Part shown: one piece after another, positions 2,168 through 29,511 of the stretch | Layout: every line of letters starts with the position of its first letter | How positions within the stretch are numbered: the first letter of the stretch is position 1 | Assembly (NCBI GenBank): GCA_021827365.1 | Contig: JAKAWK010000011.1 | Coordinates: forward strand, 1 to 33,674 | Direction of reading: 5' to 3' | Origin: Nitrospirota bacterium | Lineage (GTDB): Bacteria; Nitrospirota; Leptospirillia; Leptospirillales; Leptospirillaceae | Length of the DNA: 33,674 nt | Program-made: the position numbers and the translations under genes | Notes under the pieces: model-generated | Database searches by the model: none | Told to the model about the DNA's origin: nothing | The model's input: the letters and a program-made list of their open reading frames with translations, nothing else

Positions 2168-3688
2168 TCACTTTTCTGTGGGCATTGTTTCCAGCATGGC
2201 TGGCCATAATTTTGATTGCAGCATGCCAGTCAAGTCGAGGGTTGTTGCTGTACCCTCGGAAGCATGATTGCATTTATTTTCCATAACCAAAGAAATGGCG
2301 TGAGTGAAATGAACGCTTTTTAGGGTTTCACCAATAAAAGAGGGGATATCTTGGATAAATGCTGATGTTGGCATTCCGTACTCATCCGACAGGATCGGTG
2401 AGATGACTTGATAATGAAGGGGACACAGGAGAATCGTTTTGAGATCTGGATTTTTTTTAATCAGATTGAGTCTGTTCTTTGCATATGTTAATTCGAAAAC
2501 AGCTGGTTTGACTAATGTATCACGCACAAAATGAAATTGTAGTATTGTGCCACCAATTAAAAATGGAACAATCAAAAACATTTCGGACCATAATTTTTGA
2601 GTTGAAGCATGTGCGATGGACGCAACCGCTCCGGACATATAAGCGATCACCACAATCCAGACTGGAAACATAGTTCTCAGAAATGTAACAGGAAAGTTGG
2701 AAACCAGAACAGGTGAGAATGCAATCCCACAAAGGATTGGATAAAGTAACAACAAGGAAATTTTCTTTCCTATGGAGAGTCTTGATACGGTGATTCCGAC
2801 AATAATAACTCCGATCAAGAACCAGGGAAACCATGCTATGGGGTTTGCAAACCAAAACCTATGGATAATAGGCATTGATGTATGAAAAAAATCATTGATC
2901 CGTTCCAGGGTAGAATTCAATGGATGCATCGATCTACTGGGATCGGCGACCTTCAAATTCTGATAGGAAGTGGGGATATACCATAATCCATATAGGGCAA
3001 TAGAGATAATTCCTAATGAACCCATCTGGATCGTTTTTTGCGCCCACAATAAATCATCGTCTGTGAGCCAATGCCATAAACTGAATGCCAAAAGACCCCA
3101 ATACAACATTGCAGAGGGCTGATACGTCAAAGTTGCTGCACCAAAAAAGACAACTGAGAGCATCAGGAAGAAGATCTTGTTCAAACCATGGATTCTATTT
3201 TCAAGAACATGGTAGGCAATCAATCCGGAAATGATCGAAAAAATAGCCCCAACTACAATAAATGAGGCTGTGATCCAGAATGCACAGATCGCAACGGCTG
3301 GGACTGTGAGAGTTAAGGCAGACAAGAGTAGGGCTTTTAATGGAGCAATGTTATTTTTAACAAGATAGACGAATAGAAGATATGCCATGACAGCAATACT
3401 GATGAGGATAATGAATCGTACAAGGCTACCTTCTTCGGAAGAGTGAACAAACTTTGAATATCCGCAAAGGATCCACCCTCCAAGCGGTCGGCCCATATCT
3501 GAGTACCAGTTAATGCTTATTGGAGACCATGGGCACCTTCCGGAACCCTCATTAAAATTGAGATAATCATCATGAAACAGATAGTTCCCCTGAATAGTAG
3601 GATAAAACATTAACAATGAATAGATAAATAATATTGCAGCTACGATTAGGTTATTGTTAAGAAACCTATTGATCTTTTCATAGATCAC
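2168..3688 (-). CDS. Multi-pass membrane glycosyltransferase, GtrII-like
   Basis: This 506-residue integral membrane protein has a first membrane segment at about 14-32, a periplasmic loop with HDD at 39-41 and GRPLGG near 66-71, then some ten further hydrophobic segments and a soluble C-terminal tail of about 100 residues. The acidic pair after the first membrane segment plus GRP is typical of GtrII-type and related GT-C enzymes. These transfer a sugar from a polyprenyl-phosphate donor to lipopolysaccharide at the periplasmic face. It follows gtrB with a one-base overlap (TAG/GTG), so the two are translationally coupled and should act as a donor-making and a transferring enzyme. The start is GTG. 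The DNA is visibly AT-rich compared with the core. The sugar and acceptor are unknown, and another GT-C function is possible. Confidence 0.7.
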   Translation of the reverse strand: MIYEKINRFLNNNLIVAAILFIYSLLMFYPTIQGNYLFHDDYLNFNEGSGRCPWSPISINWYSDMGRPLGGWILCGYSKFVHSSEEGSLVRFIILISIAVMAYLLFVYLVKNNIAPLKALLLSALTLTVPAVAICAFWITASFIVVGAIFSIISGLIAYHVLENRIHGLNKIFFLMLSVVFFGAATLTYQPSAMLYWGLLAFSLWHWLTDDDLLWAQKTIQMGSLGIISIALYGLWYIPTSYQNLKVADPSRSMHPLNSTLERINDFFHTSMPIIHRFWFANPIAWFPWFLIGVIIVGITVSRLSIGKKISLLLLYPILCGIAFSPVLVSNFPVTFLRTMFPVWIVVIAYMSGAVASIAHASTQKLWSEMFLIVPFLIGGTILQFHFVRDTLVKPAVFELTYAKNRLNLIKKNPDLKTILLCPLHYQVISPILSDEYGMPTSAFIQDIPSFIGETLKSVHFTHAISLVMENKCNHASEGTATTLDLTGMLQSKLWPAMLETMPTEK

Positions 3689-4647
3689 TATGATTGTTCT
3701 CCAAGATTTTTTGAAAAGTGTTTTTCGGACTCCACAATTGTCAGCGGTTTATTTTTTACCTGGTTGAAGATCCTCCCAATATAGGCCCCGATGATCCCCA
3801 AAAAAAGCGTATTGATTGATAGGGAGAAAAGCTGGATCAGGACAATTGTCGTGAACCCCCTGGGCCAATGGGAACCAATCAACCAGTGAGAAATAAAAAC
3901 TCCGAGGATACCTACTGATGTCAGAAGGAAAAAGACCATTCCGGAATAAAAGACAATCCTCAATGGCATGACGGAATGATTAATAATGCCGTCCACACCC
4001 AATACGAAAAGGTTAGCCCAACTGAATTTACTTTTCCCTCTGGTTCTAGCCTGTCGATCATAAGGAATCCCGATCTGACGGAAACCCATTTCGGAAATGA
4101 TTCCCCTCAGATAAGGGCTATCATCTTTGACTAGCCTGATTTCTTCCAAAATTCTGCGATCGACCAATCTAAAATCACCTGCATCCACAGGAAGGTTCTG
4201 GTCACTGATGACACTCACAAAACGATAATAGATTTTTCGAAGTGCATGAATCAGGAAGCCCTCTTCCCGAGTTCTTCGAATGCCAAAAACAACTTGGTAT
4301 CCTTGCTCCCAAAGATTTAAAAACTCTGGGACCAACCCAATCGGATCCTGAAGATCGCAATCCAGTTGAACCGCAGCATCCCCTGTTGCGTTCAGATACC
4401 CGGTCAATATTGACTTCTGATATCCAAAATTTCGTGAAAATCGTATGATGTGAACTCTTGGATCTCTCTTTGCAATGGCTTCCAGAAGTTGCCATGTTTT
4501 ATCGTGACTATGATTATCTGTGAACACAAACTCAAAGTTATAGCGCTGCTTGAGAGATTCTGTCATTTCCGATACTTGCTCGTAGAAAAATTCAATATTT
4601 TCTTCTTCATTGAAAACTGGCACCACGAAAGAAATTTTTTTCTTCAA
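3688..4647 (-). CDS. gtrB: Polyprenyl-phosphate glycosyltransferase, GtrB/DPM1-like
   Basis: This 319-residue GT2-family enzyme would move a hexose from a nucleotide sugar to bactoprenyl phosphate at the inner face of the cytoplasmic membrane. The N-terminal GT-A domain shows FVVPVFNEEENI (7-18), TDNHSHDKT (43-51) and the metal-binding DCDLQDP (96-102). Two membrane hairpins lie at about 230-255 and 265-290, as in GtrB/YfdH and ArnC-type proteins. The start is TTG at 4645-4647, overlapping the upstream stop as TTGA and preceded by AAAGGGA at about 5 bases. Downstream it overlaps the GtrII-like transferase by one base. The flippase GtrA that usually accompanies gtrB is not next to it. Confidence 0.82.
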   Translation of the reverse strand: MKKKISFVVPVFNEEENIEFFYEQVSEMTESLKQRYNFEFVFTDNHSHDKTWQLLEAIAKRDPRVHIIRFSRNFGYQKSILTGYLNATGDAAVQLDCDLQDPIGLVPEFLNLWEQGYQVVFGIRRTREEGFLIHALRKIYYRFVSVISDQNLPVDAGDFRLVDRRILEEIRLVKDDSPYLRGIISEMGFRQIGIPYDRQARTRGKSKFSWANLFVLGVDGIINHSVMPLRIVFYSGMVFFLLTSVGILGVFISHWLIGSHWPRGFTTIVLIQLFSLSINTLFLGIIGAYIGRIFNQVKNKPLTIVESEKHFSKNLGEQS

Positions 4648-5546
4648 GAGAGTCCCTTTTGCATGACATCTTCCAATGTTTTCCGGATTCCAGACTCAAT
4701 GTCGTGTTGGCACCTCCAGCCGAGGGCCTCAATTCCTGTGACGTCAGCACTGGAGTTCATGATTTCATTTTCTCGATAAGGAACTCCACCAAACACAAGT
4801 TTTGTCTTTGACCCTGTAACTCTGTGCACGGTTGACACAAAATCTCGTATGCTGACAGTTTGTCCGGTTCCGATCCCGAATTGGGTAAATCCGAAAGGGA
4901 TTTCCTCCAATTTATCCAAGAGAGTTATGTAAGCCTCCGCTACATCGTCGATATAAACGAAATCGCGCTTCTGTTCCCCAAGGGTAAGCTGTAATTCTGG
5001 AACATTTTGAAGGCAATTTCGGATGATATGGGACACGAATTTGCAATTGTCGTCTTCCGGTCCATAGAGATGTTCAAGACGCAAGTTGAGAAATCTTATT
5101 TTTCCTGATCCAGCAATGAGCTTTCCCTGTTCCATGAACTGACGTTTTGAGAGGGCATAACTGCTCAAGTAATTGGTTAAGGGGGACTCTGTGTTGAAAT
5201 ACGTATCCGTATTGAAAAACGTATCCGTATTGAAGAGGATCGCTGTCTCAAGAAGTTTCAGGGGAATCACCACATTTGAATCAAATATTGAGGAAACGGT
5301 TTCGCCGTGCTTCCCATAACAGGTTGCGGTATGAAGAACCACATCCACTCGATCAAGCTTTTCGAAGGGTTTTTCAAGTCCGTCTTCGACATCGAAAATA
5401 TGCAGATGAGGGATCAGGGAAGCAATTTTTTCCAAGCTGGAGGACTTTCGCTTGAGGAGAACGATCGTGTAGTTTTCAGCTAGCAGAGATTTTACGAGAT
5501 GACTCCCGAGAAAACCGGTTCCTCCGGTTATCAGTATGGTTTTCAT
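4644..5546 (-). CDS. NAD(P)-dependent SDR sugar epimerase/reductase, CDP-abequose/paratose synthase-like
   Basis: This 300-residue extended short-chain dehydrogenase has the nucleotide-binding GGTGFLGSHL at 8-17, the catalytic pair in YALSKRQF (about 130-137) and a sugar-binding C-terminal half. Next to rfbF/G/H it most likely reduces the CDP-4-keto-3,6-dideoxyhexose they make, as RfbJ (abequose) or RfbS (paratose) does. The product stereochemistry cannot be read from the sequence. The ATG start is one base beyond the stop of the toxin-RfbH fusion. An oddity is a duplicated hexapeptide (FNTDTF / FNTDTY, then a degenerate third FNTES) just before the catalytic Tyr, caused by an 18 bp tandem duplication in the region that supplies the catalytic Thr/Ser. 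Confidence 0.75.
   Translation of the reverse strand: MKTILITGGTGFLGSHLVKSLLAENYTIVLLKRKSSSLEKIASLIPHLHIFDVEDGLEKPFEKLDRVDVVLHTATCYGKHGETVSSIFDSNVVIPLKLLETAILFNTDTFFNTDTYFNTESPLTNYLSSYALSKRQFMEQGKLIAGSGKIRFLNLRLEHLYGPEDDNCKFVSHIIRNCLQNVPELQLTLGEQKRDFVYIDDVAEAYITLLDKLEEIPFGFTQFGIGTGQTVSIRDFVSTVHRVTGSKTKLVFGGVPYRENEIMNSSADVTGIEALGWRCQHDIESGIRKTLEDVMQKGLS
5199..5234 (-). repeat. 18 bp tandem duplication inside the SDR gene
   Basis: Two 18 bp copies at 5217-5234 and 5199-5216 differ at one base. Each encodes FNTDT plus F or Y. A partial third copy continues to about 5185 (FNTES). The reading frame is kept. Confidence 0.85.
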
Positions 5547-5547
5547 G

Positions 5548-7167
5548 TCAGCGGGTTTTTAAGACCGAACTTTGGAAAAAGTTTTTCATATGACCACCTA
5601 GATAGTCCAGCATTACTTCAGCCAGTCCTGGATACACACCGATCCAGAAAGTGTTGTTCATGATCAGATCGGTATTTGTAAGTGTGCCGCTCACGCGGTA
5701 GTGCTTCTTTTGGAAATAGGGCTGACGGGTCAGATTCCCTGCAAATAGGAGACGACTGCCAATTTTGTGCTGATCCAGGTATTTGAGGAGATCCAGTCGT
5801 TCTATTCCAGTTTTTTTTTGAAGTGTGACGGGAAATCCAAACCAGGCTGGATCACTTCCTTCGGTTGCTTCAGGTAGGATCAGAAACTCCTGCAGTTCAG
5901 ATAGTCGATTTCTTAAATAACGAAAGTTGCGCTTTCTGGTCGCAATGAATTCCGGCAACCGGTCCAATTGCGCAAGACCGACTGCTGCCTGCATGTCCGT
6001 GACTTTCAGGTTATAGCCTACATGAGAGTATGTGTATTTGTGGTCGTATCCCTGCGGCAGTCCGCCCAGTTGCCATCCAAAGCGCTTTCCGCAAGTATTG
6101 TCTTTGCCCGGAGGACAGTAACAGTCTCGACCCCAATCGCGGAAAGACTCAAGAATTCGCTTGAGTTTCCCGCTTTTGGTAAATACTGCGCCGCCTTCGC
6201 CCATTGTAATGTGATGGGCAGGATAGAAGCTGAGTGTGCCGATGTCTCCGAAGGTGCCGACCTTTTTGTCCTTGTATGTGGAACCCAGAGCATCGCAGCA
6301 ATCCTCGACAATCCAGAGGTCATATTTTTTGGCGACTCTCATCACTTCATCAAGGGCAAAGGGATTTCCCAATGTGTGGGCAATCATGATGGCCCTGGTT
6401 TTGTCGGATACCGCTTTCTCGATTTGTGAGGGATCGATATTGTAAGTAGGAATTTGTATGTCGACAAAAACCGGTACCAAGCCATTCTGAAGCAAAGGAT
6501 TCACTGTGGTCGGAAAGCCTGCGGCGACAGTGATGACTTCATCTCCGGATTTCAGAGCTTTCTCTCCCAGTTGGGATGAGGTAAGGGCTGAAACCGCCAG
6601 CAAATTTGCCGACGAGCCGCTGTTTGTTGTAAGGACATACTTGATCCCCAGAAATTCTCCCAGCTTTTTCTCAAAGGCATCGTTGAAACGTCCTGTGGTA
6701 AGCCATGCGTCGAGAGAAGCATCGGCCATATTCTGAAGCTCCTCAGTACCGATTACTTTACCTGAGGGAGGGATAACACTGACTCCAGGTTCAAATGGGT
6801 GTTTTTTCAGGCTGTAGGAGGAAAAGTGAGGAATTTCCGACAAGATCAGTCTGCGCCAGACTTTGGCCATTGTAGGAGCAGTCAGTTGCGCCAGTGGTTT
6901 GATAACAATATCCTTGTGCAATAGTATTGCTTTGTCTAAACGCAGGTGACTTGGGAATGGGAGAGGTTCACCACAATAATCGTCTTTTACAAGTTCAAAG
7001 CCTTGAGAATCACTTTCAACGGGTGTACGAGTGATAAACAAGAACCTGACATCGCCATTCTTGTCTGGCATCGTGAGGGCTAAGGCTGGACGGGCCTTGT
7101 TTCCTGACAAATCGGTGAAAGGAAATGGGAGTTTATAAATTCCCCCTGCCAGAACCTCACAGGTCAT
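5548..7167 (-). CDS. rfbH: Fusion of a MazF/PemK-like toxin domain with RfbH, CDP-4-keto-6-deoxyglucose 3-dehydrase
   Basis: From ATG at 7165-7167 the product has 539 residues; an upstream in-frame start at 7209 is less likely. Residues 1-115 read as a MazF/PemK-type domain: [15 protein letters not shown], then ARPALAL with the Arg (26) that is catalytic in MazF, FLFITRTP with the conserved Thr (46), and a C-terminal helix [12 protein letters not shown]. Residues 116-539 are RfbH (DdhC/E1), the PMP-dependent [2Fe-2S] enzyme that removes the 3-OH of CDP-4-keto-6-deoxyglucose. It has [35 protein letters not shown] with His in place of the usual PLP lysine, and the iron-sulfur cysteines in [12 protein letters not shown]. 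RfbH proteins are normally about 440 residues with no such extension. Start choice: ATGACCTGTGA overlaps the stop of the antitoxin-like gene, as in toxin-antitoxin pairs. An internal ATG at 6868-6870 could give a free RfbH of about 440 residues. RNase activity is inferred from motifs only. Confidence 0.85.
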
Positions 7168-7372
7168 TCCACACATCCTCTTCAGACCTTCCAAGGACCT
7201 CTTGGGCAAACCCAGTCATTTCCTGCATTTTGGCAGTGGCAATCTTTTTGTTTGGAAGATCTTCATCCAGATCCAGAACGATGACTTCAAGACGAGTTCC
7301 TGCCGGTTTCCCAACCTTTAGATGCAGGATCCCGTCTTCACCGACGGTTTCCACGGTCCTCATAGCGTGCAT
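7157..7372 (-). CDS. Small antitoxin-like protein upstream of the toxin-RfbH fusion
   Basis: The product is about 71 residues from ATG 7370-7372; a GTG three bases upstream and an ATG at 7361-7363 ([11 protein letters not shown]) are alternatives. It has an N-terminal beta-rich stretch ([20 protein letters not shown]) and an acidic, helical C-terminus (LDLDEDLP...[18 protein letters not shown]). This matches the layout of small antitoxins encoded before PemK/MazF-like toxins, where the N-terminus dimerises and the acidic tail wraps the toxin. GAGGGAG lies about 6 bases before the start. It overlaps the rfbG stop as TGATG and the fused toxin's start by 11 bases, so it sits inside the sugar operon. 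The family is unnamed here; the role is inferred from neighbour and shape. Confidence 0.65.
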
Positions 7373-8448
7373 CACAGTTCTCCCTCATTTTGATAAGCAC
7401 GAATCTGACTGATCGTTCTCTCGCGCATCTCTTCCTTATTTGCATAGGCACGATACCAGTCGCTGATCGTCTGCAGGGCAGTTTCAAGATCCCATCGTGG
7501 CATCCAGCCGATTCGTGTTCTGCTTTTTGAAGAGTCCAGCTTAAGGTAGTGCGCTTCGTGGGGGTGTTTCCCCTCGGCCAATGTCCAGAGAGCACTTTCA
7601 CCCCAGAGAGTGGACAATCGATCCGCAATCCATTCGACTGGTTTGGCATCCTCATCATTTGGGCCGAAATTCCACGCTTCGGCATAATTCGGCCCTTCTG
7701 CCCATAGCTTCTCTGCCAGCAAGAGATATCCTGAAAGTGGCTCCAATACATGCTGCCAAGGACGTATTGCTTGAGGATTTCGGATAATTGCTGGCTGCTT
7801 TTCCATGATCGAACGCATAATATCTGGAATCAGCCGGTCATTTGCCCAATCCCCCCCGCCGATTACATTTCCGGCACGGGCAGATGCCAATGCAACACCG
7901 TGGCGCTCAAACTCGGCAGGATTAAAAAACGAGTTACGAAACGCTGAAGTGAGCAACTCTGAGCAACCCTTGCTGTTGCTGTAGGGATCGTAACCGCCCA
8001 TCGGTTCGTTTTCACGGTAACCCCAAGCCCATTCTCGGTTTTCGTAGCACTTATCGCTGGTGATATTGACCACGACCTTTACTCTACCAACACGGCGGAC
8101 GGCTTCGAAAAGGTTTACTGTGCCCATGACATTAGTTTCATAGGTTTCTACCGGATTGGCATAAGAGTAACGCACCAAAGACTGGGCAGCCATGTGAAAG
8201 ACAATCTCGGGTTGGTGGGAAGAGACTACGGTCTGGATTTGCTCCAGATCGCGTACATCACCTATGCAGGAAGTCATTCCACCAGCAACATGGGCTGATT
8301 CAAAAAGACTTGGTTTCGTGGGCGGCGGGAGAGAATACCCAACGACCTTGGCTCCCACGCACTGGAGCCAAAGAGAAAGCCAACTGCCCTTGAATCCGGT
8401 ATGACCTGTGATAAGAACTTTTTTATTTTTCCAAAAAGAGGGATCCAT
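7372..8448 (-). CDS. rfbG: CDP-glucose 4,6-dehydratase
   Basis: This 358-residue SDR enzyme turns CDP-glucose into CDP-4-keto-6-deoxyglucose. It shows GHTGFKGSW near residue 15 for NAD binding, the HMAAQSLVRYSY segment, NITSDKCYEN with the TSDK catalytic stretch, and YDPYSNSK with the YxxxK pair. Length and motifs match RfbG/DdhB throughout. The start is ATG at 8446-8448, which overlaps the rfbF stop as TGATG and has GGAAGA about 7 bases upstream. In-frame ATG 8454 and GTG 8451 are possible. The longer frame back to 8532 would lie inside rfbF and is not supported. Its product is the substrate of the RfbH half of the downstream fusion protein. Confidence 0.93.
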   Translation of the reverse strand: MDPSFWKNKKVLITGHTGFKGSWLSLWLQCVGAKVVGYSLPPPTKPSLFESAHVAGGMTSCIGDVRDLEQIQTVVSSHQPEIVFHMAAQSLVRYSYANPVETYETNVMGTVNLFEAVRRVGRVKVVVNITSDKCYENREWAWGYRENEPMGGYDPYSNSKGCSELLTSAFRNSFFNPAEFERHGVALASARAGNVIGGGDWANDRLIPDIMRSIMEKQPAIIRNPQAIRPWQHVLEPLSGYLLLAEKLWAEGPNYAEAWNFGPNDEDAKPVEWIADRLSTLWGESALWTLAEGKHPHEAHYLKLDSSKSRTRIGWMPRWDLETALQTISDWYRAYANKEEMRERTISQIRAYQNEGEL

Positions 8449-9215
8449 CACCATATCTTCCAGGGTGCCTTGCCGGAAGCCCAGAGATCTTCCAGGTGAA
8501 TCTTGTCGCGCAAGGTATCCATTGGCTGCCAAAAACCTTCGTGCAAATAGGCCGATAGCTGTCCTTCACGAGCCAGACGCTCCATCGGTCCGCGTTCCCA
8601 GACCGTATCGTCGTCATCAATGTAATCAATGACCTTGGGAGACAGTACGAAGAAACCGCCATTGATCCATCCGCCATCCCCCTCGGGTTTTTCATGAAAG
8701 CTGTTTGCCATACCTCCATGAACATTGATTGCACCGAAGCGACCTGGAGGCTTTGTGGCGGTCAGCGTCGCCAATGTGCCTTTCGACTTGTGCAGACTCA
8801 CCAAATCAGAAATATTCACGTCTCCTACGCCATCACCGTAGGTGCAACAGAAATCTTCTTCTTCCAGATACCTCCGTATCCGTTTTATTCGCCCACCGGT
8901 CATTGTGCTCTCGCCCGTATTTACCAGTGTGACACTCCATGGTTCGGCACTGTTTTGATGAATCTCCATCTTGTTCTGAACCATATCGATCGTCACATCG
9001 GACATATGGAGAAAGTAATTGGCGAAATATTCTTTGATCACATAGCCCTTGTATCCCAAACATATAATGAAGTCATGAATGCTATGAGTAGAGTAGATTT
9101 TCATGATGTGCCACAGGATGGGTTTGCCGCCGATCTCCACCATGGGTTTTGGGCGAGTAGAGGTTTCCTCGCTGATTCGTGTCCCCATTCCTCCAGCCAA
9201 AATGACAGCCTTCAT
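8448..9215 (-). CDS. rfbF: Glucose-1-phosphate cytidylyltransferase
   Basis: RfbF/DdhA joins CTP and glucose-1-phosphate to CDP-glucose, the first committed step to 3,6-dideoxyhexoses. The 255-residue product begins [18 protein letters not shown] and continues with [17 protein letters not shown], the nucleotidyltransferase signature. YGDGVGDV near 128 supplies the metal-binding Asp, and WINGGFFVL and [10 protein letters not shown] are typical of the family. I chose ATG 9213-9215 because the family starts MKAVILAGG and a GAGGGG lies just upstream; ATG at 9236 would add seven residues. It is the first gene of the operon. No strong promoter is evident in the roughly 115 bases before the right IS end. 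Confidence 0.93.
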
Positions 9216-9330
9216 CTTCCCCTCGGTCTTCTTCATTCATTTCTTGGTGAAAGTTTTGATCGTTGCTATCTTGGAATTCGTTCTCCCCATCTCATTCGAG
9301 GAGTAGGTCCGACTCATTTTTGAACGGATG

Positions 9331-10131: not shown

Positions 10132-10884
10132 TCATCGCAGTTGTATTTCTTTCTCAGAAGGGGGCTCCCACGCCTTCCCTTCATATCTCGGGGGAGCCAG
10201 CCAGTAATATTCCCGACCTCTATTTCGCTCCACCTTCAGGTCACCATCCTCAACAAGCCTATTGAGCCCCTTTCTGGCCTCTCCGATCGAAAGCCTACAT
10301 TTCCTGGCCAGTTTTCCGATATCGAGCTGATCCGAGAGAGCAAATCGAAGATTCAGAAGAACCCAGGCAAACACTTTGACATGAGGTTCATCGTTTACGT
10401 AGGCAAGGGGAGTCCCATCGGCCGGGTGACGGATAACCGGTTCCCCGAGATCTTCAGGGGTCTCGCTGGCATACTTGATCCCGATCCTCTCTCCCATGGA
10501 AATGGGATCTTCATTACCCTGTAGCTGGGACGGACCCGATGTTTGGACATCTGTTTCAGGGAATGGCATTTTTGGCTGGTCCCGCTGGTCCAACTGGGCC
10601 ATATTCTCGGATTGTGGCGCCAATACTAACTCTTCACGGTTCATTGCCTCTGGACCACTGCTCAGTTTCACACTGGTCCCGCTGGTCCCAAAATTACTCC
10701 GGGAGTCAGAAAAGGGCCTTGGGACCAAATCCGGGACCACAGGGACCAGTCCGTTTTTTTCACTGGTCCCAACATGTCTGTCAACGGAAGTCGCATTGTT
10801 ATATACATTTTCTTCATTCTGGCCCAGTGGGACAACTGGGACCAGCGGTTTTAATGATTCCCGAAGAATTTCTGCAATGCTCAT
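10132..10884 (-). CDS. Element-borne protein with disordered N-terminus and C-terminal winged-helix domain
   Basis: The 250-residue product has an N-terminal 130 residues rich in Pro, Ser and Gly, with repeats such as LVPVVP and GTSGTS that follow a repeated DNA heptamer. The C-terminal 90 residues form a compact domain (VFAWVLLNLRFALSDQLDIGKLARKCRLSIGEARKGLNRLVEDGDLKVERNRGREYYWL; positions about 165-225). That domain has the shape of a winged helix, with KLARKCRLS/EARKGLNRL as helix-turn-helix. The start ATG overlaps the primase-helicase stop as ATGA, so it is co-translated with it. A role in origin recognition or copy control is possible but unproven. Confidence 0.65.
   Translation of the reverse strand: MSIAEILRESLKPLVPVVPLGQNEENVYNNATSVDRHVGTSEKNGLVPVVPDLVPRPFSDSRSNFGTSGTSVKLSSGPEAMNREELVLAPQSENMAQLDQRDQPKMPFPETDVQTSGPSQLQGNEDPISMGERIGIKYASETPEDLGEPVIRHPADGTPLAYVNDEPHVKVFAWVLLNLRFALSDQLDIGKLARKCRLSIGEARKGLNRLVEDGDLKVERNRGREYYWLAPPRYEGKAWEPPSEKEIQLR
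10577..10844. repeat. Cluster of TGGTCCC/GGGACCA heptamers, iteron-like
   Basis: There are eight exact copies in 268 bases: TGGTCCC at 10577, 10674, 10683 and 10764, and its reverse complement GGGACCA at 10721, 10733, 10742 and 10838. A one-mismatch copy lies at 10586. A 7-mer should occur there far less than once by chance. The copies lie in the part of the overlapping gene that encodes low-complexity protein, next to primase and helicase genes. Confidence 0.6.
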
Positions 10885-13436
10885 TCGTGCGACTCCTTTC
10901 CAAAGACCGCCGAAGTGAAGACATAAACCCGTTTTCTTCCCAAGCCAGGAAGACTTTCGCGTTGGGGGATATGCGTTCCGTCAGGATCAGGGATCAGCCA
11001 TCCCGCATCGATGAGGATCCGTGTCGCGGTCTGAAGATTCAATCCCTTGATGATCTCTGCCTTGAAAGACTCAGGCAGAACAAAGAATCTCGTATCTCCA
11101 TCTTCCTCCTTACGGAATCCAACCCGATTCACGATCCGGATGTTGTCATCAGCCTCGAACGGTTCGAATCGACTCGACCCATGAGCTTCAAAAAATTGCC
11201 GGACCTGGGAAAGGATCTGATTCCTCTCCTGATTTCCCGATCCACCACGATGTTGAAGCCATGCCTTGAAGCAGGAGGAAGCCGATTCCTCCGCCTCACC
11301 CTCTGGCCAGCCCGTGATGCCAAAAAGGGTTGCCAACTCCCCAGCGCAGGCGATCAGAGCGAACCGATCCGCCACGCGCCTGACCTGCCCTTCGGATCCC
11401 TCTGGAAGATTCGCGGTCAGAAATTCAGCCATCCCCGTTCGGATGAAAGATTTGATATTCTCCAAGATTCCCGTGATCCCTGTCAGGAAAGATCGGATGG
11501 GAGTCCCGTAGAACTTCCTTGAGACATCTTTAAGGTGGTCTGAAAAAACACCTCCATCCTTGAACCCATGCAAATCCTCAAAGACGGTGCCTGGGCTGGG
11601 TTCGGCAGGAATATCGAGAAACCGGACCATCATTCCAGCCTTTGGGAAATGCCCTCCCGAAGCCATGTGAGCCGTGATGGTAATTTCTCCGGTCGATAGG
11701 GCCAGCGTCCTCCAGATCACTGTCTTCCTGATTCCTCCTGAACGATTCGCCCGTGACTTAGCCTGACCGTTCGCAATGAGGTATGCTGCATGGCCCGATA
11801 TTCTTGGATCCGACTGTCCCAGTTCATCAAAGACCGAGAGGCAATCGTTCAGACCTGCAAGAACCCCCTCAAGACCGTTATCTGTGGTCCGCCATGAACG
11901 GACGTAGTCTCTGGAGCCATAGACAGAAGTTGAAACCTGGATAAGTGAGGTCTTCCCCGTAGAACTGGCACCGAAGAAATGATTCACCCCCGAATCGACC
12001 CCACCGAGGTGCAGAAGAGGTGCGGCAAAAGCTGTCGAAATGGCAAAGATAAGCCGTGAATTTCCAGCACAAAGTTTCCCGATATTGTCCCGCCATTCCT
12101 CGACAGTGCCGGAGGTCAGAAAAAGATGGTCGGTTGTTTCCGACTGAAATAGGATCCTTTCCGGGCCTTTGTTTCCAAATGTCTCATCCGGAAGGACAAA
12201 GACATCCTCATACCAACCGATCTTTGGGACGCACCGAATCCGGGCCTTTGGAGAGGATAGCTTCACAAAGTCCTCGAGAAGGCGCTTGCTCTTCTGACCG
12301 GAGGCGAGGATGTAGCCGAGACGTGCCAGCTCCCGGTGAAAGTCGCTCGTGTCTGCCCCAAGGAGCGTTGCAGGACACACCCAGACGTGGGGGATCCCAT
12401 CGGGATCAGTGAACCGAAGGACACGCCCCCAATCCTCCGATTTTTTATCCCGGACAAGGGCCTCAACAATGAGCGGAGCCCCAATCCGGATTTCCCTCTC
12501 TCGAGGGTTCCCGTCGTCATCCTCTTTGATTTCCAAGGCATAGAGGCCCCCTTCCTTGATCCTGAAGCCATGGGGAATGCCTTGGAATTTATCCTCTTCG
12601 ACTCCAGGCAATTCCGGGGGCTTTGTCAGAGTCTTCAATTTCTCCAAGGAGTTTCCGGCTGCGAGGTAGTCATCCACCCCAACTTTCTTTCCGCTTTCCC
12701 CATCAGGAAGGTAGAGGATGATGACATTCGCCCCCCGTCCCCGAAGGAAGTTGGCAAGGCGATCCCTGGCATTCTCTACCTTGGGATTACGATCGGCGTC
12801 CGAATCAAAAACGAGGTAAACGTTTCGCCCTTTGAGTGCAATACTTTCCCAGTCCGAAAGGGCCGTCGTCCCTCCTTTCTCATTGCTTCCGCGCCAATTC
12901 CAAACTCCGGAAAGAGCGACCACGCATCGGGTACCATGTGATAGGAGAGAGTCTGCCTTCCGGACACCTTCGGTAATCCAGAGGTCCACTGCGGGAGTTC
13001 CGATGTGGGAAAAGGACCGAGGATGAACATCCAGGCACATCCGAGACCGGGCTGGGGTCTCGTATTTGACCGCCTTTCCTTCCCGGTTCTTTCGTGGAGC
13101 GTCTGGCCGGGATTGAATATTTCCAATTTTCCCATCGATGGTATGGAGGGGAATAAGGAGTGTCGGGGTCTGTTGCTGAGCGGGTGTAAAACCAAGAGAG
13201 GCCAGAGCCTCCTTGTTTCCGACCGTCCGATATCCCCGCTCCCTGATGATTTCCAGTGAGATTCCTGACTCTTTCTCCAACATGTGGGTATGGACATCAG
13301 AAAGTTCGGCGATGGGTAAGGTACGGATGATAGGATCCGGATCGGGAACCGGATCCCTTTTTCTTTTTCCATCCGGCATCACCTCCGGGTCGAGAAAGCC
13401 TTGTGGTTCTGAAATCAGTTCTGTAGAATTTGACAT
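10881..13436 (-). CDS. Primase-helicase: TOPRIM-like (DUF3854) plus DUF927-type ATPase
   Basis: This product of about 851 residues comes from ATG 13434-13436, which has GGAGGAG upstream; an in-frame ATG further up at 13502 lacks support. The N-terminal part has LWITEGVRKADSLLSHG (near 160), the acidic LVFDSDADRNPKV (near 210) and VGVDDYLA, the layout of TOPRIM-like DUF3854 domains in phage and plasmid primases. The middle and C-terminal part is a DUF927-type helicase domain with Walker A FGASSTGKTSL (near 480), Walker B LSVFDELGQSD and GEITITAHMASGG. Such proteins start or drive replication of integrative elements and plasmids. It overlaps the downstream winged-helix gene as ATGA. Both nucleotide-binding motifs look intact, unlike the helicase gene upstream. 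Confidence 0.8.
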   Translation of the reverse strand: MSNSTELISEPQGFLDPEVMPDGKRKRDPVPDPDPIIRTLPIAELSDVHTHMLEKESGISLEIIRERGYRTVGNKEALASLGFTPAQQQTPTLLIPLHTIDGKIGNIQSRPDAPRKNREGKAVKYETPARSRMCLDVHPRSFSHIGTPAVDLWITEGVRKADSLLSHGTRCVVALSGVWNWRGSNEKGGTTALSDWESIALKGRNVYLVFDSDADRNPKVENARDRLANFLRGRGANVIILYLPDGESGKKVGVDDYLAAGNSLEKLKTLTKPPELPGVEEDKFQGIPHGFRIKEGGLYALEIKEDDDGNPREREIRIGAPLIVEALVRDKKSEDWGRVLRFTDPDGIPHVWVCPATLLGADTSDFHRELARLGYILASGQKSKRLLEDFVKLSSPKARIRCVPKIGWYEDVFVLPDETFGNKGPERILFQSETTDHLFLTSGTVEEWRDNIGKLCAGNSRLIFAISTAFAAPLLHLGGVDSGVNHFFGASSTGKTSLIQVSTSVYGSRDYVRSWRTTDNGLEGVLAGLNDCLSVFDELGQSDPRISGHAAYLIANGQAKSRANRSGGIRKTVIWRTLALSTGEITITAHMASGGHFPKAGMMVRFLDIPAEPSPGTVFEDLHGFKDGGVFSDHLKDVSRKFYGTPIRSFLTGITGILENIKSFIRTGMAEFLTANLPEGSEGQVRRVADRFALIACAGELATLFGITGWPEGEAEESASSCFKAWLQHRGGSGNQERNQILSQVRQFFEAHGSSRFEPFEADDNIRIVNRVGFRKEEDGDTRFFVLPESFKAEIIKGLNLQTATRILIDAGWLIPDPDGTHIPQRESLPGLGRKRVYVFTSAVFGKESHE

Positions 13437-13568
13437 AGGTGTAGTCTCCTCCTGGCCGTCCCGTGAAGACGGCCTTTTTTGTGCCATCATGCGCTCTGCC
13501 AAGAATCAATCCATTCTTGGACCTCCCTAGATCTCCATCCTGCAGCCCGGATCGAGAGTTTGATTTGC

Positions 13569-14982
13569 TTAGGAAATTGCCCTTTCCCCACTTTTCTCGA
13601 TATTCCGGATTTTCTCGTTTTGCGGGATTTTCTTATTTTTCACGTTTTTAATGCCCGTTTGTGGTTTATCTGGAGGGTTAATTGCTACCGGTGCGGACGA
13701 GATTGCTTGCCCATCTCCATCGTCAACCCGAATGACCCTGAGCCATTTTTCGGAGTCTCTTTTCGCGTAGGAGGCTTCCCCTTCGGTAATACATGTCATA
13801 TCAGGGTCCTTTCCGGGTTGCAGAACAACCGTCCACCTGCTCCCTGCCGGGAGATTAGAAGATCCACGGGAAGATTGCCCATGCTTCTCTCCATTCATCA
13901 TCCCGACCTTGTTTTGATGATGGATTTCCAACACGGCAGCACCGGGCTCCCTTGATATTCTCCGGAGGCACTGGACAAGGACCTTCGCAGCCCGATCATC
14001 GTTTTCGCTGGCATCCATGACTTCAGCGAGGGGGTCGAGGATGATCAAACTTACCCCTTTCCCATCGCGAATGATTATGTAGACGTTCGAGGTAGGGGCT
14101 GGGATTCCTCCTGAATCGACGGAAACGAGATCACATTCCCGAACGGGAAATATTCTGAGGTTTTCCGCCCCGTCTGCTATCCATCCATAGCCCGGCAATT
14201 GGCGAATGGACCAGATCCGTCTCCATATCACCGGAGCTGAATCCTCCATTGAAAAAAATAGGGCTTTCCCGACCTTCGGCGCGGGCCAGAGGGCCTTTCT
14301 GTCAGGAGCATGGGCAAACCCGGGCGGTCTCCGGCAACAGCCAGGGCAATATGCAACGCAAGAAATGATTTTCTCGTTCCGTCCGGCCCGATTATCATCC
14401 CGAAGATACCGGGTTCGGCCGGGAAATGACTAACGATAAACTCCTGAGAAGGCGGAGAGGTAGTGACGCACATCCGGACATCAAGGGGCTTGAATCCGTC
14501 ATCTTTCGGGATAGATTTTGCCAGCTCACCGATCTTTTGCTGGATTTGCAGGTTTTTTCTGGATTACCCTCGTTGACGGCCTTATCCAAAGAAGCGGCCA
14601 AGAGCTTGGCCCGTCGAAGTGGGGGTTTCTCCCGCAGGATCCGGGCATAACAGTTTGCATTACAAGCGGTGGGGACGATCTCGGAAAGTTCTGCGATATA
14701 TATCCGCCTTCCCCCTCCCAAATCGACGGCGGACTTTTCCATCCAGTTAGCAAGCGTGACCGGATCGATCCCGGCCCCATCACACCACAACTCCAGCATG
14801 GATTTATAGATTTGCCGGTGAATTTCGAGATGGAAATCCTCAGGAGTCAAAACCTCCCGGTCGAGAACTCCATTGTCCACAAAAATCGAGCCAAGAAAAA
14901 ACTTTTCGGCCTCAAAATCGTGGGGGAGATTCTTCAAACCATTGACAGGCTCCAACTGGCGAACTTTGGCGGAGGCTTTCAT
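13569..14982 (-). pseudogene. DnaB-N/RepA-like replicative helicase split over three frames
   Basis: The intended protein has about 470 residues. It starts at ATG 14980-14982 (ATGA overlap with the upstream gene). The first frame encodes a DnaB N-terminal-like domain (LPHDFEAEKFFLGSIFVDNG, YIAELSEIVPTACNA). Near 14550, at a run of six A, the sense continues in the -1 frame with LQIQQKIGELAKSI, then FGMIIGPDGTRKSFLALH. Near 14320 it shifts -1 again to GKALFFSMEDSAPVIWRR, LIILDPLAEV (Walker B) and LEIHHQNK, typical of RepA/AAA_25 RecA-fold helicases. The second shift falls on G GGT TTG, a canonical -1 slippery heptamer in the correct phase. The Walker A reads GPDGTRKS, with Arg replacing the usual Gly. 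Decay, sequencing error or recoding are all possible; decay is the simplest reading. Confidence 0.75.
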
Positions 14983-15215
14983 TTTCCACTTCCGGAACAT
15001 TTATTCTTAAATCTGTTCAATCCTTCCCCAATGAATCTCCAACTCCAGCTCAATCCATTCCGGATAAGCTCCTCAGGAATGTCCCGTTGCCTTTCTTCGA
15101 CCCGGTAACGGATGGTCTCGTATGCCGGGCCTATTCTTTGCCTTACGATTTTGAGACTAATAAATGGGGGGATCTTCTCCCTTGCGTCCACTCCGATCGA
15201 TTTTCTCTCGTTCAT
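14979..15215 (-). CDS. Small unknown protein of the replication operon
   Basis: This basic 78-residue protein (MNERKSIGVD...) contains a predicted helical core with SLKIVRQRIGPAYETIRYRV and LIRNGLSWSWRF. I recognise no family; the helix pattern could suit a small DNA-binding protein. It overlaps the upstream HTH gene and the downstream helicase gene by ATGA at both ends. That supports it being translated as part of a coupled set. Confidence 0.55.
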   Translation of the reverse strand: MNERKSIGVDAREKIPPFISLKIVRQRIGPAYETIRYRVEERQRDIPEELIRNGLSWSWRFIGEGLNRFKNKCSGSGK

Positions 15216-27122: not shown

Positions 27123-28037
27123 CTAGCTCTCTTCCCGAATCCTCGAGAGTTTTTTGGCCAGAAGGTCGAGGCCGGTATGGAGGTACCGCTGGGTCGTCCC
27201 GAGGGAGGCATGGCCCAGAAGCGCCTGAATTTCCCGGAGATCGGCCTCACGGTTCAAAAGATGGGTCGCACAGGAGTGGCGAAGAGCGTGGGGGGTCACC
27301 TTCCTGTCGAGACCGATCTCCCGGGACCGTTTTTTCACGATTCGGCCGACCTGCCAGACGGAGAGCGCCCGTCCCTCCTTTCCGGAAAAGATCGGTGAAG
27401 ACGGAGGGAGGGATCCCTCCCCCTCTTTGGCTCTCCTGAGCCGGACGATGGCGGCCCGGGCCTCTCCCACAACCGGAACCCGGCGGTCCCGTCCCCCCTT
27501 GCCATGGACCAGAAGGGAGCCGGACCCTTCCTCGAAGTCTCCCCAGACGAGGCCGCAAAGTTCGGAGAGTCGGAGCCCGCTTTCATAGAAGAGCTCGAGC
27601 AGGGCTCGGTCCCGAAGGGAGGATACATCCTCTTCTCCGACGGGAACGGCGACGAGGGAGGCGGCCTCCTCTTCCGAGAGGACGGCCGGAAGGACCCGGG
27701 AGACCCGGGGCCCCGAAACCCTCCGGAAGGGATCCTCCTCCACATGGCCGGTCTTTTGCAGGTAGGAGAAAAATCCCCGGAGGTTCGAGAGAATGCGGGC
27801 AATGCTCGAGGGGGCGTAGCCCCGTTCATGAAGACGCTTCACGGACCGGAGGGCGCGGGGCCGGTCGACACGTTCCCAGAGAAAGCCCTCTTGGCCCCAA
27901 AAGGTTTCGCCCAGGAGACCGGCCAAAAGGGCAAGGTCCTTTTCCACAGCCGCCTGCGTCCGGGGGGAGCGGCCCGCCTGGACCATCTCCCGCCGGTAGG
28001 AGACGAACAGCGGGTCCCGGGAAAGCCGTTCTTCCAT
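27123..28037 (-). CDS. xerC: Tyrosine recombinase XerC/XerD-type
   Basis: The 304-residue product has a core-binding SAM-like N-terminal domain (1-95) and a catalytic domain with Arg in ESGLRLSELCGL, Lys in VHGKGGRDRRVPV, HALRHSCATHLL (H-x-x-R), the second His in GHASLGTTQRY and the nucleophilic Tyr in QRYLHTGLD. The place after trmFO and the length fit XerC, which resolves chromosome dimers at dif with FtsK. ATG 28035-28037 is the family-like start but its GAAGGA lies directly against it; ATG 28088, just past the trmFO stop, would add 17 residues. It is in the core run, not in the island, so it is not likely to be the island's integrase. Confidence 0.88.
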   Translation of the reverse strand: MEERLSRDPLFVSYRREMVQAGRSPRTQAAVEKDLALLAGLLGETFWGQEGFLWERVDRPRALRSVKRLHERGYAPSSIARILSNLRGFFSYLQKTGHVEEDPFRRVSGPRVSRVLPAVLSEEEAASLVAVPVGEEDVSSLRDRALLELFYESGLRLSELCGLVWGDFEEGSGSLLVHGKGGRDRRVPVVGEARAAIVRLRRAKEGEGSLPPSSPIFSGKEGRALSVWQVGRIVKKRSREIGLDRKVTPHALRHSCATHLLNREADLREIQALLGHASLGTTQRYLHTGLDLLAKKLSRIREES

Positions 28038-28092
28038 TCCTTCGCGTTCGCGGCCGCTCCGCCGGTTTCCCGATCCCGAGCCTCCCATCGGC

Positions 28093-29511
28093 CTACCCCT
28101 GACCCGGACGAAGTCGAAAGGGCCCAGCCGGAGCCGGAGGGGCCTCTTCATTCAAGTTTTCCCGCCACGAGGCAAAATCCCTGCGGGCCCGGGCTACGAT
28201 CGCCTTGCGCCTCTCGCTCTTCCCTCCGCGGACGCGAGACGGGAGGGGCGGGAAGAGGCCGAAATGCAGGTTGACCGGACAAAAGGGCCCGGTCTCCTCC
28301 GGACCGGGGGCCTCTCCTTCCGGACGGTAGGCCGAGGGAACGAGTGCCCGGAGCAGGGCCCCGACTGCCGTCGTGGCCGGGGGAAGGGTTTGGGGGGGGC
28401 GGGGTCCAAGAAACAGGGCCGTGAGGCGTCCCAGGGCAATGGACTCGGTATACCCTTCTACCCCCACCATCTGGCCTGTGGGATAGACCCCCGGAAGTCT
28501 CCGGAGGGAGAGATCCGGTCCCAGGACCCGCGGGGCGTCAAGAAAGGTGTTCCGGTGAAGCGATCCGTAACGCAGAAAATGGGCCCCAGAAAAGCCTGGG
28601 AGCTTTCGGAAAATCCGGTCCTGTTCGGAGTAGCGGAGTTTGGTCTGGAATCCGACCAGATTGAAGGCGGTCTCTTCGCGATTTTCAGCCCGGAGCTGGA
28701 CAACGGCATGGGGCGTCCGGCCGGTCCTGGGATCCACGAGACCCACCGGCCGCATGGGACCATAGGCCAGGGTCTCCGGTCCCGACTCGGCCAGTGATTC
28801 CACCGGCTGGCAGGCCTCGAAGGCCCGGAGCACCTCCGGACGGTCTTCCACGCCTTCGTGGGGAGGAACCCGCTCTCCCCGGAGAAGGTCCTCGACGAGG
28901 CTCCGGTAGCCCTCGGAATCAAGCGGAACATTGAGGTAGTCCCCGACCCCCGGTGTTCCGTACCGGTCTCCCCGGAAGAGCTTAGACAAATCCAGGGAAT
29001 CGGCCTCAACCACAGGACTGATGGCGTCATAGAAGGACAGACGGTCGCTTCCGATCCTTTCCAGGAGATCCTGCGTGAGGGCGGGGTGGGTCAGGGGTCC
29101 GGTGGCAAGGATCAGGGGCCTGTCAGGAGGGATCCGGTCCATCCTCTCCCGGCGGAGCGTGATGTTCGGATCGGCCTCGACCCGGGCGGTCAGGTGACGG
29201 GAGAAGCGCTCCCGGTCGACAACCAGGGCTCCTCCTCCCGGAATGCGAGCCTCCATCGCCGCCTCCAGGACAAAGGATCCCATCCCCTGGAGTTCCTCCT
29301 TGAGAAGACCGTGGGCCGTCTCCGGGTCAAGGGACTTGAGGGAGTTCGAACAGACGAGCTCGGCAAGGTCTCCGGTCCGGTGAGCGCCGGTCTGACTCTC
29401 CGGGCGCATTTCGAGGAGGAGAACCCTGACGCCCTCTCTGGACAGGGAGAGGGCGGCCTCCGTTCCCGCCAGTCCCCCTCCGACAATGGTGACGGACCCG
29501 GGCTCCTTCAC
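28093..29511 (-). CDS. trmFO: Folate-dependent tRNA (uracil-54) methyltransferase
   Basis: TrmFO uses methylene-tetrahydrofolate and FAD to make ribothymidine at position 54 of tRNA. The 472-residue product has the FAD fold VGGGLAGTEAA near 9, the GAHRTGDLAELVCSNSLKS signature near 43-60, ALVVDRERFS and TGQMVGVEGYTESIA near 370. GTG 29509-29511 overlaps the topA stop as GTGA; the longer frame to 29625 would sit in topA. topA-trmFO-xerC is a common order in bacteria that have trmFO. Confidence 0.93.
   Translation of the reverse strand: MKEPGSVTIVGGGLAGTEAALSLSREGVRVLLLEMRPESQTGAHRTGDLAELVCSNSLKSLDPETAHGLLKEELQGMGSFVLEAAMEARIPGGGALVVDRERFSRHLTARVEADPNITLRRERMDRIPPDRPLILATGPLTHPALTQDLLERIGSDRLSFYDAISPVVEADSLDLSKLFRGDRYGTPGVGDYLNVPLDSEGYRSLVEDLLRGERVPPHEGVEDRPEVLRAFEACQPVESLAESGPETLAYGPMRPVGLVDPRTGRTPHAVVQLRAENREETAFNLVGFQTKLRYSEQDRIFRKLPGFSGAHFLRYGSLHRNTFLDAPRVLGPDLSLRRLPGVYPTGQMVGVEGYTESIALGRLTALFLGPRPPQTLPPATTAVGALLRALVPSAYRPEGEAPGPEETGPFCPVNLHFGLFPPLPSRVRGGKSERRKAIVARARRDFASWRENLNEEAPPAPAGPFRLRPGQG

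Follow-up and report, generated by a model that had tools for sequence, protein, structure and literature searches.

A cluster of short repeats just past the stop codon of a primase-helicase gene is, with high probability, an iteron array of the ori/crr type, belonging to the replication origin of a mobile element and bound and fired by the self-loading DUF3854-DUF927 initiator (P0002) that the gene encodes. An origin of iteron type is proposed because the repeats are constrained at the DNA level, lie 3' of an initiator primase-helicase and face both ways around an AT-rich stretch, and because most relatives with DUF927 share this layout, as do P4 crr and the EcCICFT073 origin, which has been tested. 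The element carried by the window, the whole 33.7-kb stretch of DNA that was analysed, thus gains a concrete candidate origin.

The repeat array

Exact copies of the heptamer TGGTCCC/GGGACCA occur eight times within 10577-10844, with TGGTCCC on the plus strand at 10577, 10674, 10683 and 10764 and on the minus strand at 10721, 10733, 10742 and 10838. The sequence-only reading had reported these eight copies, four each way in 268 bases, and the figure was confirmed by a recount and by shuffling: in 100 dinucleotide-shuffled versions of the window, no heptamer reached more than four copies per 268 bp. Both strands of the window together hold 14 TGGTCCC sites, eight of them in 10577-10844, and no second heptamer cluster was found in the whole window. 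Allowing up to one mismatch to the octamer TGGGACCA gave ten sites, namely the eight exact heptamers and two more octamers, and eight of the ten are paired at 9 bp (10577/10586, 10674/10683, 10732/10741 and 10828/10837). The features of the array and of the genes beside it are as follows.

10132..10884, minus strand: P0001, 250 aa, whose start overlaps the P0002 stop (ATGA)
10577..10844, both orientations: iteron array and candidate origin, made up of ten TGGGACCA-type octamers of which eight contain the exact heptamer
10577..10593, minus strand: iteron pair with 9-bp spacing; TGGTCCCG and TGGTCCAA on the plus strand; frame RDQ/LDQ
10674..10690, minus strand: iteron pair with 9-bp spacing; TGGTCCCG and TGGTCCCA on the plus strand; frame GTS
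10720..10748, plus strand: iteron triplet with spacings of 12 and 9; TGGGACCA, CGGGACCA and AGGGACCA
10764..10771, minus strand: single iteron; TGGTCCCA on the plus strand
10781..10826, no strand: AT-rich stretch, candidate melting site, between the 10764 iteron and the 10828/10837 pair
10828..10844, plus strand: iteron pair closest to the helicase stop, spaced 9 bp; TGGGACAA and TGGGACCA
10881..13502, minus strand: P0002, DUF3854 (Toprim-like primase) plus DUF927 (MCM-like AAA+ helicase), proposed initiator (Pfam, profile, model)
10884..11222, minus strand: P0002 C-terminal region (about residues 761-873), proposed iteron-binding domain (motif tracking; homology, PMC7581432)
13569..14249, minus strand: AAA_25/RepA-like ATPase ORF, upstream in the same module (domain search)
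14395..15000, minus strand: ORF with a DnaB-like helicase N-terminal domain, upstream in the same module (domain search)

A genome-wide count of the heptamer had been proposed with the sequence-only reading, and the heptamer proved not to be common. A pattern search of the host genome (87% completeness, 155 contigs) returned 436 sites in 2.25 Mb, fewer than the 691 of its reversed control, which is no enrichment. At the genome-wide rate 0.05 heptamers are expected in 268 bp and the probability of at least eight is about 1e-15, while Bonferroni correction for every start position and all heptamers gives about 2e-5.

The stretch at 10781-10826 is moderately AT-rich (0.675 over 40 bp, where about 4% of the window's 40-mers reach 0.65) and separates one iteron pair from the other eight sites. 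AT-rich flanking is clearer in the sister loci L181, L183, L187 and L185. A role in melting is suggested for this stretch by the origins of PICIs (PMC6092414).

The proposed initiator and known origins

The array starts 37 nt past the stop of P0002. This protein matches PF06048 (DUF927) in Pfam with an E of 8e-80, and its family conserves GxSSxGKT-type Walker A and DE Walker B columns. A profile built from 61 relatives matched only two PDB entries, that of SaPIbov1 Rep (8tch) with an E of 3e-34 and that of SCCmec Cch (5dgk) with an E of 9e-27. The same two entries were the top PDB matches of an AlphaFold2 model of residues 295-873 (pLDDT 92.8), over the full length including the C-terminal domain (TM 0.66/0.73 for 5dgk and 0.57/0.67 for 8tch). 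Judged by sequence and by predicted fold, the P0002 helicase is a homologue of SCCmec Cch and SaPIbov1 Rep. The C-terminal 134 residues alone gave no PDB sequence match, and P0002 as a single-sequence query found no match among viral contigs where the alignment query did. A P4 alpha-type primase-helicase was considered for P0002 and rejected, as alpha matches 7ola and 1ka8 in the PDB and P0002 matches 8tch and 5dgk.

Cch has a DUF927 domain and is a relative of SaPIbov1 Rep, both are self-loading initiator helicases, and in the SaPI Rep helicases the C-terminal domain recognises a short-iteron origin directly downstream of their own gene (PMC7581432). What we infer for the window is a series of steps that ends in the firing of the origin. 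The C-terminal domain of P0002 would bind the TGGGACCA repeats, whichever way they face, and helicase hexamers, probably two, would assemble at these sites. The AT-rich stretch (about 10781-10826) would melt, and the P0002 helicase would load and then prime replication. The first ~105 residues of P0001 would be a low-complexity linker in front of the conserved winged-helix domain, arising because the ORF reads through the array.

Repeats 3' of the helicase genes of SaPIs, PICIs and P4 are known, and the variant here is a candidate array that is read through as part of the next gene. The window shares with SaPIbov1 Rep, SCCmec Cch and the SaPI origin a homologous helicase, repeats directly downstream of its gene and a C-terminal region proposed as the origin reader. 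It differs in its N-terminal DUF3854 fusion, its octamer TGGGACCA, its host and the position of its array inside the next ORF. In EcCICFT073, GGTAGACA repeats lie directly past pri-rep, some of them 9 bp apart, and this origin was shown to be necessary for plasmid maintenance (PMC6092414). The iterons directly 3' and the 9-bp spacing among them are common to both, the PICI having two sets around an AT-rich region. However, Pri-Rep is annotated as another primase family and its array is intergenic. Neither alpA nor an integrase was found for the window's element. The crr of P4 consists of 8-bp repeats, GGTGAACA, starting 46 bp past the alpha stop; as in the window they run both ways, are partly 9 bp apart and lie directly 3' of a primase-helicase gene, and the alpha C-terminal domain has been solved separately (1ka8). 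Alpha, however, is not a DUF927 protein, a second P4 array (ori) lies about 4.7 kb away, and GGTGAACA stands against the window's TGGGACCA. Origins within genes are known, phage lambda ori lying inside gene O. The lambda iterons are likewise within coding sequence but in the initiator's own gene, whereas those of the window are in the gene after the initiator and those of the sister elements in the 3'-terminal part of the helicase gene. PLE RepA (PMC7145576) was set aside as a comparison, being of another initiator family.

Several observations concern the surroundings of the module. The AAA_25 ATPase ORF and the separate DnaB N-terminal-domain ORF (13569-15000) may be parts of a helicase that was split or has decayed, or may form a loader pair. 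A minus-strand polysaccharide block adjoins the module at 3688-9236 (GtrB-like glycosyltransferase, DegT aminotransferase, GDP-mannose dehydratase and nucleotidyl transferase), and the N-terminus of its DegT ORF is extended by a sequence with weak similarity to MazF/PemK (E 0.04). Neither an integrase nor an att site nor plasmid circularity could be found for the element, which could therefore be a decaying remnant. No tRNA was found, and no integrase near the replication module; the sole integrase in the window (27123-28151), near topoisomerase I and DprA, looks chromosomal (Xer-like).

Arrays at related loci

The collection comprised 170 loci with a closed DUF927 ORF, drawn from plasmids, phages, genomes and viral contigs, and was reduced to 120. 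The survey was based on 119 dereplicated loci with sequence past the stop, an array being scored as at least six copies of one hexamer in 400 bp at the stop. Such an array was found at the stop in 73 of the 119 loci, inside the gene in 5 of 119 and at +1200..+1600 in 0 of 107. Fewer than six copies were present at 46 of the 119, some of which, e.g. L012, have shorter arrays. At the 73 array loci the median position of the first copy is +33 nt past the stop and the median number of copies is 10; at least two copies in each orientation are present at 64 of them, and 209 same-orientation neighbours are spaced exactly 9 bp. The SaPI-type rule that the origin lies directly after the helicase gene extends in this way to many bacterial groups with DUF927 proteins.

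The motif drifts around GG(T/G)NNACA, with GGTAACA, GGTGTAACA, GGTGTGACA, GGTGGAACA, GGGGACA, GGGAACA and TGGGACA as examples. The P4 iteron GGTGAACA and the GGTAGACA repeat of EcCICFT073 resemble this motif. The window's TGGGACCA is an outlying member which does not have the ACA ending common to most of the family. Some 90 initiator-array pairs with motifs drifting around one core offer a basis for studying the origin specificity of self-loading helicases and how it changes. The pattern TGGTCCCNNTGGTCCC was found in viral contigs mostly as single occurrences among the matches listed. At L167, L169 and L173 a TTGGAGAta repeat follows the DUF927 stop in place of the usual GG..ACA motif.

Related modules from the same genus and family are present at L181, L183, L185, L186 and L187. 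Pfam identified a VapE-type helicase in L181, L183 and L185 and DUF3854 in L183 and L185. The sister arrays comprise 6-11 copies of GGGAACA (CGGAACA in L185) within the 3' end of the helicase gene, arranged in two blocks with an AT-rich stretch between them. The spacings are 18, 10, 11, 24 and 10 plus roughly the mirror image. The sister arrays fall in two reading frames, the 10- and 11-bp spacings breaking the codon frame. Between L183, L186 and L187, identity is 93-98% at the iteron bases and 59-66% in the remainder of the tail, the first figure being raised somewhat by the choice of columns by motif. The sister arrays occupy the same place in a changed coding context, and therefore the position of the array between the helicase and the winged-helix domain is kept. 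An alignment of homologous elements had been suggested as a check on the sequence-only reading, and in the relatives the motif does keep its place while the surrounding protein changes. In the position of the window's DUF927 the sister elements have a VapE-like helicase, DUF3854 being kept in L183 and L185, and this has the appearance of helicase exchange within one module.

Alternative readings and translation of the array

The sequence-only reading had placed an origin with initiator binding sites here, which the place, the anatomy and the relatives fit, and had suggested the downstream winged-helix protein as a binder, which is less likely. If P0001 were the binder, the array would be an operator for autoregulation or P0001's own origin. 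Its winged-helix domain is indeed encoded directly past the array, here and in L181, L183, L186 and L187, and the sister arrays are similar in motif despite the different helicase class. However, no P0001 homologue accompanies the 11-copy array of L185, and no array accompanies the P0001 homologue of L184, whose N-terminus is similar and whose linker is free of the repeats. Most DUF927 arrays elsewhere are followed by unrelated other ORFs, and motif similarity tracks the helicase C-terminus. Across 92 array loci, motif distance varied with C-terminus distance when the helicase core was controlled (partial r 0.18, 0 of 500 permutations) and not with core distance when the C-terminus was controlled (partial r 0.04, 87 of 500 permutations), the effect being small and the permutation ignoring the relatedness of the loci. 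Binding by P0001 is thus regarded as unlikely. The C-terminal domain of P0002 is the more likely binder, given the arrays without P0001 and the P0001 homologue without an array. An initiator-bound array may still not be the start site. In P4 the alpha-adjacent array is crr and the mapped start is about 4.7 kb away, therefore the window's array may be a required cis site, an accessory element resembling crr in copy-number or incompatibility control, with replication starting elsewhere in the element. P4 type 1 repeats do occur in two places, crr immediately 3' of alpha and the separate ori. Against this, the 33.7-kb window holds no other heptamer cluster, and in PICIs and SaPIs the origin follows the initiator gene immediately on its 3' side (PMC6092414, PMC7581432). 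The accessory role is therefore considered unlikely.

It could also be argued that the repeats are a protein-level feature, a tripeptide-repeat linker (GTS or LVP-VVP) of P0001, with the DNA repeat as a by-product. Residues ~1-105 of P0001 are encoded across the array and residues ~110-243 form a conserved winged-helix-like domain with homologues in the sister elements. Within each orientation most copies in the window do fall in one frame, those at 10674, 10683 and 10764 translating as GTS, and ORFs of at least 150 aa run across the array at 23 of the 73 loci against 2.6 expected. However, the 10577 copy, in the same orientation, translates as RDQ in another frame. The unit GGACCAgcGGGACCA is present twice, at 10674-10689 as GTSGTS and at 10577-10591 as LDQRDQ in a different frame. 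The pair at 10577-10593 thus repeats the 9-bp-spaced unit in another frame, which argues that the DNA is constrained and not the peptide. Resampling or permuting the synonymous codons of the overlapping ORF (5000 tries each) gave a mean of about 1.1 heptamers and a maximum of six, never eight. At other loci just 10 of 81 same-orientation sets lie in a single frame, the sister arrays contain 10- and 11-bp spacings, and many arrays have no ORF across them. The protein-level linker is already contradicted by these data and retains almost no credibility. The array sequence is constrained at the DNA level and kept for predicted binding, with the downstream ORF reading through it; the sequence-only reading was right that the protein follows the DNA motif.

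P0001 homologues align over residues ~110-243 only, i.e. past the array. P0001 alone folded poorly (pLDDT 48.5) and only the winged-helix part reached 70-80. P0001 was rejected as an initiator, its PHROG match to 'replication initiation O-like' not being significant (E 0.27).

Translation of the array is frequent in the survey. At 44 of the 73 loci, against 21 expected from shuffled sequence, at least 80% of the array is spanned by an ORF whose start lies no more than 60 nt from the stop. In the array-spanning ORFs the iterons translate into GGT/GVT/GTV and VPP/VTP/VPT runs, in most cases with more than one frame in use. It is possible, though the proposal is a tentative one, that in much of the DUF927 family the origin doubles as the 5' coding part of a separate gene that follows, the frequent 9-bp period giving GxT/VxP runs and the array and initiator C-terminus co-evolving as a specificity code that can be read. 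Through such reading of the array, expression of the downstream protein may be coupled to occupancy of the origin. In the literature searched, with partial coverage, no description was found of an origin doubling as a coding part of the next gene in DUF927 elements. The odd low-complexity GTS/VPVVP 'proteins' are explained as translated iterons. The array-spanning ORFs at L011, L013, L027, L029, L030, L070, L086, L102 and L166 often share a C-terminal EERAAIxEyDGGLxRxEAE-like motif; this type of small protein is tied to DUF927 origins and gives a weak match to phrog_22422 in L027 and L102.
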